Shown one piece after another: positions 50,756-64,000 of a stretch of DNA of 64,000 bases. The position numbers and the translations under genes are program-made. Origin of the DNA: Hungatella sp. (GTDB lineage: Bacteria; Bacillota; Clostridia; Lachnospirales; Lachnospiraceae). Positions within the stretch are counted from its first letter, which is position 1, and each line of letters opens with the position of its first letter. Under the pieces are notes generated by a model, which worked only from the letters and a program-made list of their open reading frames with translations, did no database searches and was not told where the DNA came from. Location of the stretch: assembly GCA_009712635.1 (NCBI GenBank), contig WASS01000029.1:62001-126000 (forward strand). The letters run 5' to 3'.

Positions 50756-51745
50756 ATGAATGAGATTTACTATTGGTCTCCTGGAGTACAGTTTTATGTA
50801 AAGGAAGAAGAACTTTACGTGGAACGGTTTCGATACGGCAGGCAGGCGGCTCAGTTTTTTCCAGAGTTTTATTATATGACTCAGAATGGAGCCGGAACCG
50901 ATGATCTGGAAAAGCGGTTTGAGACAGAAAACAAGAGTCTGCTTAAAAATTTAATTCTGGATTTTATTAAAAAGAAAATTTTGGTGTGTTCTGTAATTAC
51001 ACCAAAGGAACTGTTTCATAGTCAGACAAGGCTGTTTGAGAATGATTATCCGGAAACCATTCGATTTGTAAAGGAGGAATTGGAAGAGTTTAAAAAGGAG
51101 CAGTCCAGACGGGAGCTTGTAAAAGAAGGGCTGACCTATATTTTAAAGGATTCTCATTATTGCAATGACATAATTTACCGTGAAACAGTTCGGAAATTTT
51201 CACATAAAACCATTACATATCATTCTCTTTCAAGGATATTGGGGGCTTTACAAAACAGGGAGGACAGAAAAGGAACCAGATATTATCCCAGTGCAGGCGG
51301 ATTGTACCCGGTTGATGTCTATGTGTTTGTAAAACCCGGCAGAGTGGAAGGCGTGGAACAGGGATTATATTATTATAACCCAGTAATAAATGGAATTACC
51401 TTTGTTGATAAGGGAGAAAACATCACGGATAAATCCCAGTATATCACCAATCAGGAGATTTTTGCCAGTTCAGCATTTACCATATATTTTCTGTACAACG
51501 CCAGATGCAGTATGCCAAAATACAGCGGTATGGGATACTATTACGGGATTTTAGATTGTGGTATTATGACAGGCCTTATTACCCGGATCAGCGAAGAGGA
51601 GGGAATTGGGACCTGTTCTATTGGAGATATGTTATATGGGAAAATAGAATCCTGCTTTCATTTAAACAAGAGCCAGTTATTTCTGCATTCCATGGAGTGC
51701 GGTTACAAGGATGAAGCTGAGATTGAGCAGCCAAAGGAGAAATAA
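50756..51745 (+). CDS. SagB-type dehydrogenase, probable thiazoline oxidase
   Basis: A 329-residue protein. The C-terminal two thirds are a SagB/ThcOx nitroreductase-fold domain (FMN-dependent): KGTRYYPSAGGLYPVDVYVFV, VEQGLYYYNP, and GYYYGILDCGIMTGLITRISEEEGIGTCSIGDM. The first ~110 residues are an extra N-terminal domain, also usual in the family. SagB enzymes oxidise azolines to azoles. Here the partner is an NRPS with two cyclisation domains, so it should turn thiazolines into thiazoles in trans. No E1-like cyclodehydratase is present, so this is not a ribosomal-peptide locus. The ATG at 50756 follows a purine-rich binding site; a longer frame from 50732 is less likely. Confidence 0.88.
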   Translation: MNEIYYWSPGVQFYVKEEELYVERFRYGRQAAQFFPEFYYMTQNGAGTDDLEKRFETENKSLLKNLILDFIKKKILVCSVITPKELFHSQTRLFENDYPETIRFVKEELEEFKKEQSRRELVKEGLTYILKDSHYCNDIIYRETVRKFSHKTITYHSLSRILGALQNREDRKGTRYYPSAGGLYPVDVYVFVKPGRVEGVEQGLYYYNPVINGITFVDKGENITDKSQYITNQEIFASSAFTIYFLYNARCSMPKYSGMGYYYGILDCGIMTGLITRISEEEGIGTCSIGDMLYGKIESCFHLNKSQLFLHSMECGYKDEAEIEQPKEK

Positions 51746-51746
51746 T

Positions 51747-52775
51747 ATGAGCTTTAAGCCCCTGCATGATATGCCGTCTCCGGAACAGTTAAGAGAGGAA
51801 TATCCGGTTTCTTGTAAGCTTGCTGCCATTAAGCTGGAAAGAGACAGGGAACTGGCTGCAGTGATCCAGAATCAGACCAATAAATTCCTGGTTATTGTTG
51901 GCCCATGTTCCGCAAGTAACGAGGATGCCGTCTGCGATTACGCAAGCCGTTTGTCAAAAGTAAATCAGAAATTAAATCAAAAGCTATTTATCATTCCTCG
52001 GATTTATACAGCTAAACCAAGAACCAATGGATACGGTTATAAAGGAATTCTTCATTATCCGGAGGGCAGTACCCATTCCGATCTTGTTAAAGGTTTGAGA
52101 GCGGCAAGAAATCTTCATTTAAGGGTTGCTGGGGAATCAGGTCTGACAACGGCTGATGAGTTACTCTATCCGGAAGCTTTTGCTTATTTTCAGGATATCG
52201 TGAGCTATCTGGCCATAGGAGCCCGGTCCGTGGAAGATCAGCAGCACCGTTTTGTATCCAGCGGAGTGAATTGTCCCGTTGGTATGAAAAATCCCACAAA
52301 CGGGAATCCGGATACTTTATTCTATTCCATTTTTGCAGCTCAGCATGGTCATAAATTCATATACAGAGACAGAGAGGTAAAGAGTTCTGGAAATCCTCTG
52401 GCCCATGCCATTATCAGAGGGTACGAAAATTTTATGGGAGAATATGTACCCAACTACCAATACGACCAGCTGTTAAAAATAGGAGAGAAATATAGGAAAC
52501 AAAAACTTAAAAATCCCTTTATTATCTGTGATGTGAACCATGCGAATTCAGGAAAGGATTACTCCAGGGAGCCAATGATTATTTATGATGTACTGGAAAG
52601 CCGGAGAAGATCAGAAGAGATTCGGATGATGGTTGGAGGGGTAATGATAGAAAGTTTTATTGAAGCAGGAAGGCAGGAGATTTCCGGAACTGTGTATGGA
52701 AAGTCGGTTACCGATGGATGCCTTGGGTGGAATGAGACAGAGGAGCTGTTGTATTACATCGCTGAACACGTATGA
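51747..52775 (+). CDS. 3-deoxy-7-phosphoheptulonate (DAHP) synthase, cluster-borne
   Basis: A 342-residue class I DAHP synthase of the AroF/G/H type: IVGPCSASN near residue 50, IPRIYTAKPRTNGYGYKG, the KNPTNGN metal/phosphate region, and IICDVNHANSGK. It condenses PEP and erythrose 4-phosphate, the entry step to chorismate. It starts two bases after the SagB stop and 28 bases before the NRPS, so it belongs to the operon. A dedicated copy suggests the product or a tailoring step needs extra shikimate-pathway flux (an aromatic starter, or prephenate as cofactor). Confidence 0.93.
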   Translation: MSFKPLHDMPSPEQLREEYPVSCKLAAIKLERDRELAAVIQNQTNKFLVIVGPCSASNEDAVCDYASRLSKVNQKLNQKLFIIPRIYTAKPRTNGYGYKGILHYPEGSTHSDLVKGLRAARNLHLRVAGESGLTTADELLYPEAFAYFQDIVSYLAIGARSVEDQQHRFVSSGVNCPVGMKNPTNGNPDTLFYSIFAAQHGHKFIYRDREVKSSGNPLAHAIIRGYENFMGEYVPNYQYDQLLKIGEKYRKQKLKNPFIICDVNHANSGKDYSREPMIIYDVLESRRRSEEIRMMVGGVMIESFIEAGRQEISGTVYGKSVTDGCLGWNETEELLYYIAEHV

Positions 52776-62202: not shown

Positions 62203-63086
62203 GGCTGAAAAATTTTATAGACCACATGAATGCGGTTCATAGCAGCGCTAAGGAATATTACCAGGATATGAACTACGATATTGTGCCGGGACTCAATGGA
62301 ACCAATCATGCACGCTGGATGAATGTAGGCTATTGGAAACATGCAGCCTATTATAATCAGGCGTGTGAGAAGCTGGCCATGCTGTTAAGCAGAGCGGGAA
62401 AATTTAATGAGTCGGATTCTGTATTGGATGTGGGCTGCGGAAGCGGAGAGCAGGATTTTTTCTGGAGCAGAAAATATCCGGGAATATCTATCACAGCCAT
62501 GGATTTATTGGAAAAGCATATTGAAGAAGCGATTGTGAGGCAAAAAAATGAGGAAGGCACATCCATCCGGTTTATGGCTGGAACAGCCAGTAATCTTCCC
62601 TTTGACAACGAGTCATTTCATAAAGTATCTGCACTGGACTGCGCCTACCATTTTGACACCAGAGAAGATTTCTTCCGGGAGGCCCACCGTGTGCTGAAAA
62701 GGGGAGGAGTATTAACCGCTACGGATATGCTTCCTGAAAAGCAGACGAAAAAAAAGTACTTTTGGCAGAAAAAATGGCGGGAAGGGCTGTTTATACCAGA
62801 AGAAAACATGTATGACATTAACTGCTATGTAAAGAAATTAAAGGCGGCTGGTTTTTCCCAGATTAAAGTAAAGCACATTGGGCACGAGGTATTTACAGGT
62901 CTTGCCTGGTATTTTCTTTCCCGTTTTTTGATGCCCCATAAACCCATTGAACAAATAAAGATACGTGTTGGAAGAGTTAGCTTTTTTAGCAGTTTTTATC
63001 CTAAAATATGGGGGATTCTGTTTGGAACCCCGGATTATGTTTTGGTTACTGCTGTTAAAAATGGGAAAGAGGAGGGAACGGTTTGA
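62199..63086 (+). CDS. Class I SAM-dependent methyltransferase
   Basis: A 295-residue methyltransferase. SAM-binding motif I is [21 protein letters not shown] near residue 75, followed by [14 protein letters not shown], and [23 protein letters not shown] near 165, the arrangement of small-molecule methyltransferases of the UbiE/Erg6-like group. Its ATG overlaps the NRPS stop (ATGA), so it is translationally coupled and probably O-, N- or C-methylates the product. Confidence 0.9.
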
Positions 63087-64000
63087 TTTATTCAGTAGGT
63101 ACAAATTTTGATCTGGAGCTTTTGAATGTCATTAAAAAATATGACACCAAAAATGAAATTAAGTCTGTATTTGGAAAATTGAAAATTGATGATTTTGGAG
63201 GAGGGCGATGTTCCATGGTTCTTCCTGATGTGAGCTGGAAGGAGTTAGAGCAGTATATCTCCCAGTGTCATAAGCAGGACATTCAGTTTAATTATCTGAT
63301 AAATCCAATGTGTTATGGAAGTCATGAAATGGAACGGGATTATAATAAAAAACTGGATAAATATTTAGACAGACTTTCTAAGATTGGTGTGGATATTATT
63401 ACTACGAATTCTCCTTACATGCTGGAAAGCATCAGGAAACGGTTTCCACATTTTAAGGTAACAATAGGTCTTTATGCACTTGTGGACACACTTCAGAAAG
63501 TGAAATACTGGCAGGATCTGGGGGCAGATGAAATTACGCTGAATGACAATTTTATGAGAAATTTCAATAAGCTGGAAAATCTTTTACTGGCCACAAAAGG
63601 GACAGGATTAAAGCTTCGGCTTATAGCCAATAACATATGCCTCCATGACTGCCCTTACAGTGTGAGCCATGGCAACTCTCAGTCACATGCCAGTGAAAAA
63701 GGCAGTTCCTCTGCGGGTTTTAGTGTAGACTACTGCATGCTCAAATGCACAATGACCCGTTTGGGAGACCCCTCACAGTTCATCAAATCCGCCTGGATCA
63801 GACCGGAGGATATTGTTCATTACGAGGCTCTGATGGAGAAAACGGGAAATTATGATTTTTCCATCAAATTACTTGACAGAACAAGAACTACAGAGTTTTT
63901 GGAACAGGTAATTAAGGCTTATACGCAGCGAAGTTATGACGGCAATTTCCTTGATATCGTCAATCTTCCATCAACCAAAGCCATTAAAAATATTGATATG
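63083..64000 (+). CDS. U32-family (UbiU/UbiV/RlhA-like) protein, 3' end outside window
   Basis: An open frame of 306 codons to the window edge, starting with TTG at 63083 that overlaps the methyltransferase stop; GGAGG lies about eight bases upstream. The barrel-like sequence ([20 protein letters not shown]) and [16 protein letters not shown] fit the peptidase-U32 family. Four cysteines in two C-x3-C pairs (186/190 and 218/222) could hold a [4Fe-4S] cluster, as in UbiU, UbiV and related oxygen-independent hydroxylases. As the sixth gene of the NRPS operon it may add a hydroxyl group without O2. Family is fairly sure; activity is inference. Confidence 0.7.

Follow-up and report, generated by a model that had tools for sequence, protein, structure and literature searches.

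A predicted bithiazole synthetase cluster in a Hungatella species with a candidate O2-independent U32 hydroxylase and a DAHP synthase

In bacillamide biosynthesis the oxidase BmdC turns a thiazoline into a thiazole during assembly on the synthetase, according to the available excerpts of PMC8795117. In the literature consulted, U32 proteins that have an assigned function act in hydroxylation, and the accessible portions of a review add that the family also includes putative peptidases (PMC11574389). Those portions, with the corresponding parts of a second paper, report prephenate as the oxygen source of the U32 hydroxylases (PMC11574389, PMC6599085), and the review notes that direct evidence of prephenate use by these enzymes is still wanting and that the function of the Fe-S cluster is unsettled (PMC11574389). 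Relatives of BmdC and of the U32 hydroxylases are encoded together in the DNA analyzed here, a 64,000-nucleotide stretch of Hungatella sp. (the window; positions 62,001 to 126,000 of contig WASS01000029.1, assembly GCA_009712635.1). The contig has 601,667 bp and the genome 5.63 Mb. To our knowledge anaerobes cannot use O2-dependent monooxygenases, and how they hydroxylate secondary metabolites is in our view an open question.

We judge the chances evenly balanced that the locus of this anaerobic bacterium is a fatty acyl-AMP ligase (FAAL)-loaded bithiazole cluster with an O2-independent U32 hydroxylase, in which a 3-deoxy-D-arabino-heptulosonate 7-phosphate (DAHP) synthase would feed prephenate or an aromatic starter. 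The FAAL-like domain would load a carboxylic acid onto the nonribosomal peptide synthetase (NRPS), two cysteine modules would condense and cyclize it to a bis-thiazoline, and the BmdC-like oxidase would convert the carrier-bound thiazolines to thiazoles. The terminal reductase (R) domain would free the bithiazole as an aldehyde, which the class III aminotransferase would probably convert to a bithiazole-methylamine, as does MxcL in myxochelin B formation. The U32 protein, probably an Fe-S enzyme, would hydroxylate the product or the starter without O2, with prephenate the probable oxygen donor, and the cluster DAHP synthase would lift shikimate flux toward prephenate and possibly toward an aromatic starter. 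A probable role of the methyltransferase is to cap the new hydroxyl. Export, and perhaps masking of the product for self-protection, is proposed for a transporter-dikinase fusion protein. We infer the reactions, substrates, hydroxylation site and oxygen donor from gene neighborhoods, homology and conservation.

The operon runs on the plus strand in the order thiazoline oxidase, DAHP synthase, NRPS, methyltransferase, U32 protein, class III aminotransferase, type II thioesterase and phosphopantetheinyl transferase (PPTase), and extends beyond the window end at 64000 to about 67211 in window numbering. A first-pass annotation of the DNA had coupled the synthetase to a SagB oxidase, a DAHP synthase, a methyltransferase and a U32 protein, all of which do lie in this one operon, and the further tailoring genes that it sought past 64000 were found, these being the aminotransferase (64335-65738), the thioesterase (65758-66456) and the PPTase (66504-67211), each on the plus strand. 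The NRPS (52804..62202, plus strand) is an open reading frame (ORF) of 3132 residues with three AMP-binding, two condensation and three carrier stretches and one NAD_binding_4 stretch in Pfam. These domains, the motifs below and a match to McyG bear out the reading FAAL-T-Cy-A-T-Cy-A-T-R in a single protein (T, carrier; Cy, heterocyclization; A, adenylation). The FAAL-like loading domain (52804..54438, boundary approximate) matches the fatty acyl-AMP ligase model NF006624 over residues 20-534 with 413 bits, under the whole-protein cut-off of 600, and its best PDB match is McyG at 232 bits. Three GGDS carrier motifs are present: carriers T1 (54445..54648) and T3 (60721..60909), both with approximate boundaries, hold FFDLGGDS at residue 576 and FFELGGDS at residue 2660, respectively, and T2 (57595..57786) has the Pfam PP-binding match 1598-1661.

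Both condensation domains carry the DxxxxDxxS heterocyclization motif, as previously claimed, in the form DMLIADGMS in Cy1 (54721..56028; Pfam Condensation 660-1050, BmdB match) and DLLIADGIS at residue 1819 in Cy2 (57871..59103; the second Pfam Condensation stretch), the boundaries of both being approximate. The adenylation pockets read DLYNMSLVW in A1 (56071..57534) and DLYNMSLIW in A2 (59215..60663; Pfam AMP-binding 2138-2485). In the alignment of A1 to BmdB the cysteine module of the latter likewise starts DLYN at these positions, a pocket type that we take to be the cysteine code, and both A domains are thus predicted to select cysteine, as first proposed. The best PDB match of the Cy-A-T module is BmdB, the bacillamide synthetase cysteine module (651 bits), and Irp2 and dihydroaeruginoic acid synthetase are also among its matches. 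The oxidase gene (50756..51745, plus strand; longest ORF 50732-51745, with the ATG at 50756 the likelier start) encodes a SagB-family protein that scores 85.8 bits with TIGR03605 (cut-off 78.4) and finds BmdC as its best PDB match (236.9 bits over residues 10-328, with the MPKY stretch retained). The protein is therefore predicted to be a flavin thiazoline oxidase of the BmdC type. The NRPS ends in the R domain (61087..62202; Pfam NAD_binding_4 2764-3004; best PDB match MxaA at 102 bits, AusA at 71) and lacks the terminal C domain of the bacillamide synthetase proper. Hence, tandem cysteine heterocyclization, thiazoline oxidation in trans and reductive release, the logic of the first-pass annotation, are supported by the BmdB and BmdC matches and the R domain. 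The parts of the synthetase are known ones, and what is new is their arrangement. As anticipated by the claim of a product without known match, neither a described product for the cluster nor a paper on it was found among the matches listed in the literature search (subscription papers and preprints lay outside the search).

The most interesting pair of the cluster, to which the earlier annotation gave no role, is formed by its U32 protein and its DAHP synthase. The U32 gene (63083..64318, plus strand, of which the window holds the part up to 64000) has a TTG start and encodes 411 residues in full. The protein fits both the U32 (PF01136) superfamily profile and the TIM-barrel fold, and its own profile matches an alignment of TrhP, RlhA and UbiV with a probability of 93.7 and an E value of 1.9e-7. 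In the fold search a solved U32 hydroxylase was absent among the matches listed, which excludes nothing. C186, C190 and C222 are invariant in 28 aligned U32 sequences, and the protein has an extra C-terminal set of four cysteines. In the R. flavefaciens group L026-L045 the U32 copies are longer (482 residues in L027, 535 in L036) and seem to carry a low-complexity insertion after the barrel, ahead of the C-terminal cysteines. Among the papers listed in the literature search, none described a U32 enzyme that tailors natural products. Proteins P0053, P0058 and P0128 of Fusobacterium were among the listed relatives of the U32 protein and of the NRPS.

The DAHP synthase (51747..52775, plus strand) is of the AroFGH type. 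Its longest ORF is 51711-52775, and 51747 is the probable start because the congener G1071 has a stop codon immediately before the equivalent methionine. The protein scores above cut-off with PF00793, NF009395 (349 bits; cut-off 343) and TIGR00034 (245; cut-off 173), and almost all of its length can be aligned to DAHP synthases of solved structure. It is a second copy, the other being found at L107 of the same genome; a PADLOC scan of the protein gave no match.

The neighborhoods of U32 genes were compared in the best 80 loci of at least 553 confirmed relatives. In four of the 80 (L067, L071, L076 and L081) a DAHP synthase gene is no more than 500 bp away from the U32 gene. Chorismate mutase-DAHP synthase fusions, which would make prephenate, are present in L067, L076 and L081 and also in L022, there about 5 kb from U32; these four loci belong to Myxococcota/Deltaproteobacteria and Clostridia metagenome-assembled genomes (MAGs). 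In Peptoniphilus duerdenii (L098) a DAHP synthase is found about 14 kb upstream of U32, and in G363 (L119) one is found 1.8 kb from a U32-O-methyltransferase pair. Three kinds of DAHP synthase therefore stand beside or near U32: the AroFGH type of the window, a stand-alone enzyme of another type (P. duerdenii, G363) and the chorismate mutase fusion. As a control we used 68 proteins of the window's own genome, 66 of which had no match within 500 bp of U32, the two exceptions being a U32 paralogue (four matches) and a chorismate-binding TrpE-like protein (one match, in L055). L055, from a Planctomycetota MAG, thus has a chorismate-binding enzyme homologue less than 500 bp from its U32 gene. In a U32 tree of 86 rows, from which near-duplicates and rows shorter than 330 residues were excluded, the DAHP-bearing loci occupy separate branches and the DAHP label needs at least three changes, with the window and P. 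duerdenii uncounted. All 13 genomes examined had a chorismate synthase match (a fragment only in P. duerdenii), and nine of them had the chorismate mutase family CM_2, with CM_1 in two of the remaining four.

U32 genes also have other biosynthetic neighbors. A type III polyketide synthase (PKS) family, identified by Pfam on two members (L065 and L068), lies near U32 in seven of the 80 loci, in five within 500 bp (L065, L074, L077, L079, L049, L062 and L068; Geomonas, Planctomycetota and a Desulfuromonadales MAG). Many entries in the list of recurrent neighbors were shadow ORFs in repeat-rich or high-GC frames and were discounted by eye; B12-binding radical SAM-like genes seem, again by eye, recurrent in loci related to these. 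In G363 the U32 gene adjoins a PF01596 O-methyltransferase gene, with a MatE pump, a UvrA-like protein, an acyltransferase/NMO protein and the DAHP synthase nearby, and the locus looks like a polyketide cluster, a second and apparently non-NRPS type. Both neighborhoods, that with the O-methyltransferase and that with the type III PKS, would suit an enzyme that hydroxylates aromatic or heteroaromatic products. The U32 protein and its recurrent shikimate partners point to O2-independent hydroxylation in anaerobic natural-product biosynthesis. The broader proposal, to which we give slightly less than an even chance, is that members of this U32 clade use prephenate to hydroxylate natural products without O2, as tailoring enzymes for nonribosomal thiazoles, type III polyketides and other compounds in many anaerobe phyla, that a dedicated DAHP synthase or chorismate mutase-DAHP synthase supplies its donor, and that the window cluster is one instance.

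Several related clusters combine U32 with an NRPS. A condensation domain-containing NRPS lies near U32 in seven of the 80 loci (L005-L009, L014 and L015), and NRPS matches were found in ten, three being lone adenylate-forming enzymes (L022, L023 and L053). A SagB-family oxidase, an NRPS and U32 co-occur in the window, L005/L097, L006/L096, L007/L098, L015, G054 (L101) and G145 (L099/L100). The order oxidase-NRPS-methyltransferase-U32-aminotransferase-thioesterase recurs in a Clostridiales MAG (L005, L097) and in Ruminococcus flavefaciens ND2009 (L006, L096), the NRPS of which lacks FAAL-T. A free-standing FAAL was considered as the starter source of R. flavefaciens and set aside, the best match in that genome being just 103 bits. 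Anaerobacterium chartisolvens (L015) has FAAL-T-Cy-A-T and a LuxE-type protein, and G054 has Cy-A-T and a LuxE-type protein, in both cases with the oxidase and U32. G145 and Thomasclavelia saccharogumia (L008) have the oxidase, a Cy-type NRPS and U32 in common; their U32 proteins (L099, from the window's family, and L008) are identical, which suggests a recent cluster transfer. P. duerdenii (L007, L098) has the oxidase and thioesterase in a single ORF, a separate FAAL, an R-terminated NRPS and U32; upstream of this cluster lie shikimate genes and a chorismate-binding enzyme, several in pieces, and the sole chorismate synthase match of that genome is a fragment in the same region. Other arrangements of NRPS and U32 are found in a Eubacterium MAG (L014) and in Desulfoluna (L009, L102), the latter with an oxidase-like match that scores 116 bits. 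An identical or almost identical pocket (DLYN followed by M, L or I and then by S) appeared in A domains of L005, L006, L008, L014, L015, L097 and L099; the anchor pattern used missed the A domains of L007, L101 and L009.

A number of observations weigh against a prephenate-dependent hydroxylase. The cysteines of the cluster U32 protein are spaced CX3C-X27-CX3C, not the CX6CX15CX3/4C typical of known U32 oxidases, and C218 varies among the 28 aligned sequences; UbiU and UbiV themselves depart from that motif, according to the literature excerpts at hand. TrhP requires Glu162, eight residues ahead of C170, in the available text of PMC6599085, and the aligned sequences of the cluster's U32 family have no conserved acidic residue in the segment leading up to C186. 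A clade of 30 mostly Ruminococcus U32 copies showed no biosynthetic context in the three loci checked with Pfam (L012, L027 and L036). The DAHP association has its own weaknesses. The control is weak in that only 14 of the 68 proteins match any of the 80 loci and seven of these match just one; for the proteins with 6 to 14 locus matches, none of the matches is close to U32. The window-type DAHP synthase matches none of the 80 loci, all six matches being of the other type, obtained with the P. duerdenii query. L067, L071, L076 and L081 may represent one event because all are in one clade, and L005 and L006, which have the same U32 type as the window, gave no DAHP synthase match in the stretches examined. 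Finally, neither CM_1 nor CM_2 was detected in P. duerdenii or the MAG G299, which argues against a universal need for prephenate.

One alternative is a different U32 chemistry, such as sulfur or redox tailoring or aldehyde handling, with the proximity of DAHP synthase incidental. The changed cysteine pattern and the extra C-terminal cysteine set would suit such a role, as would the putative peptidases in the family (PMC11574389, as excerpted) and the position of U32 directly after an R-terminated NRPS (L007, L008/L099) or a LuxE-type gene (L015, L101). We consider it rather unlikely, given the three kinds of recurrent DAHP synthase neighbor, the adjoining O-methyltransferase in G363 and the hydroxylation reactions of the functionally assigned U32 proteins in the literature consulted.

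The other function open to the DAHP synthase is to serve the starter only, the FAAL-like domain loading a chorismate-derived aryl acid to give an aryl-capped bithiazole, similar to pyochelin or aeruginaldehyde, with U32 uncoupled. McyG takes phenylpropanoid starters. As McyG is the nearest PDB match of the loading domain, aromatic and fatty acyl starters are equally possible, and of the "acyl" starter first annotated, the FAAL-like loading stands and the fatty acyl identity is not established. In P. duerdenii, moreover, genes for AroB, AroA, DHQase, DAHP synthase and a chorismate-binding enzyme lie upstream of those for the oxidase, FAAL and NRPS. However, the single chorismate-binding match of the window's own genome (PF00425; G000:C9) lies away from the cluster, is only 30% identical to the P. 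duerdenii piece and is most likely TrpE, so that a salicylate synthase is not evident in the genome, and the chorismate mutase-DAHP synthase fusions adjoin U32 in loci without NRPS matches (L067, L076 and L081). Hence, we regard a DAHP synthase confined to starter supply as doubtful. A salicylate starter from an own salicylate synthase was rejected, the one chorismate-binding match being outside the cluster.

The nature of the released product bears on a further alternative, a fatty-acyl bithiazole aldehyde and an aminotransferase that has its role elsewhere. This agrees with the FAAL-type loading and the R-type release, and the aldehyde named in the first-pass annotation survives as the form released by the R domain. 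However, the class III aminotransferase is conserved in three cluster types, those of the window, L005 (64%) and L006 (66%), beside the same NRPS type, and is present in all three congeners compared. This conservation makes a bithiazole-methylamine the likelier end product and a free aldehyde improbable. In its simplest form the predicted product would be a bithiazole substituted at position 2 and ending in CH2NH2. It is likewise improbable that the bithiazole, with a phenol or amine, is a metallophore for iron, zinc or copper, as the earlier suggestion of metal chelation would have it, since iron-related genes occur near the U32-NRPS genes of P. duerdenii (an iron-dependent-repressor-type regulator and FeoB), Thomasclavelia (a 67% identical FeoB homologue) and Desulfoluna (a TonB receptor and FecCD-type permease, by eye) but not in the window cluster, where the transporter is the MFS-dikinase fusion, the regulator is of the TetR family and the lack of any uptake gene among the cluster genes led us to reject a siderophore reading.

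The preferred reading, a hydroxylated bithiazole-methylamine pathway, concerns a conserved block of genes. Upstream on the minus strand are a TetR-family regulator gene (49745..50344; Pfam TetR_N), divergent from the operon and present in three of three congeners compared, and the gene for a 1246-residue fusion (45934..49674; Pfam MFS_1, PPDK_N and PEP-utilizers; 87% identity in G1071) of an MFS transporter to a dikinase resembling phosphoenolpyruvate (PEP) synthase and rifampicin phosphotransferase. The 800-residue dikinase part could phosphorylate the product and the MFS part export it. Among the best 120 listed homologues of the fusion five have the MFS domain, and most of the rest are unfused and some 800 residues long. 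The S-adenosylmethionine-dependent methyltransferase (62199..63086, plus strand; PF08241) is UbiE/BioC-like and has partners of 55% (L005) and 60% (L006) identity. In G1071 nine genes, from the MFS-dikinase fusion through the thioesterase, are kept at 75-94% identity. Within about 5 kb on each side of this block neither the PPTase nor the tested flanking genes of the Hungatella genome were found in G1071, save for one 46% match to an ABC ATPase. We therefore put the cluster limits near 45934 and 66456, regard the PPTase as optional and count the TetR regulator and the MFS-dikinase fusion as members because they lie inside the block conserved in the congener. The closer congeners G1089 and G1091 (some matches of the latter being fragmented) share most flanking genes as well, and four genes at 69602-72865 are missing from both.

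All nine genes are under purifying selection, with omega values between the Hungatella genome and G1071 of 0.044-0.156 (our own Nei-Gojobori script and this single congener). U32 has the lowest value (0.044), followed by the aminotransferase (0.080) and the DAHP synthase (0.087); the MFS-dikinase fusion has 0.133. The U32 gene is present in four of 25 genomes of the genus, own genome counted, and the NRPS is 85% identical to a protein named as from Lacrimispora amygdalina. Few of the genomes sampled outside the genus have the U32 gene: within the family, two of 298 others (G145 and G054) hold copies of at least 40% identity, with a match at E 1e-70 or better in one of 390 genomes of the class (G363) and none in 397 genomes of the phylum. 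A compositional island was ruled out, the GC fraction being 0.413 in the cluster versus 0.414 upstream and 0.417 downstream, as was a tRNA-linked island, the window having no tRNA.

If the proposal is true, a U32 protein with a dedicated prephenate supply within an NRPS operon would offer a genetically accessible system for the unsettled U32 chemistry, and the U32 gene would be a marker for oxidized natural products of anaerobes. Among known systems, the Cy-A-T cysteine module and stand-alone oxidase of bacillamide synthetase (BmdABC, as excerpted from PMC8795117) are the closest PDB sequence relatives. Unlike that synthetase, the cluster has two thiazole modules rather than one, FAAL rather than alanine loading and an R rather than a terminal C domain, and it adds U32, DAHP synthase, methyltransferase and aminotransferase genes. 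With UbiU-UbiV, the anaerobic ubiquinone hydroxylases, and the RNA hydroxylases TrhP and RlhA, the U32 protein has in common a TIM-barrel with conserved cysteines, but it differs from them in cysteine spacing, in the extra C-terminal cysteines and in its natural-product operon. In the myxochelin system (MxcG/MxcL) R-domain release is followed by an aminotransferase. The cluster has the same pair of functions, although the MxcG model matches the NRPS only below cut-off and cysteine heterocycles are formed, not a lysine-catechol. The pyochelin/yersiniabactin and aeruginaldehyde pathways use cysteine Cy modules on an acid starter, and so does the cluster in prediction, but with its oxidase in trans, no siderophore uptake genes and no salicylate synthase evident in the genome.

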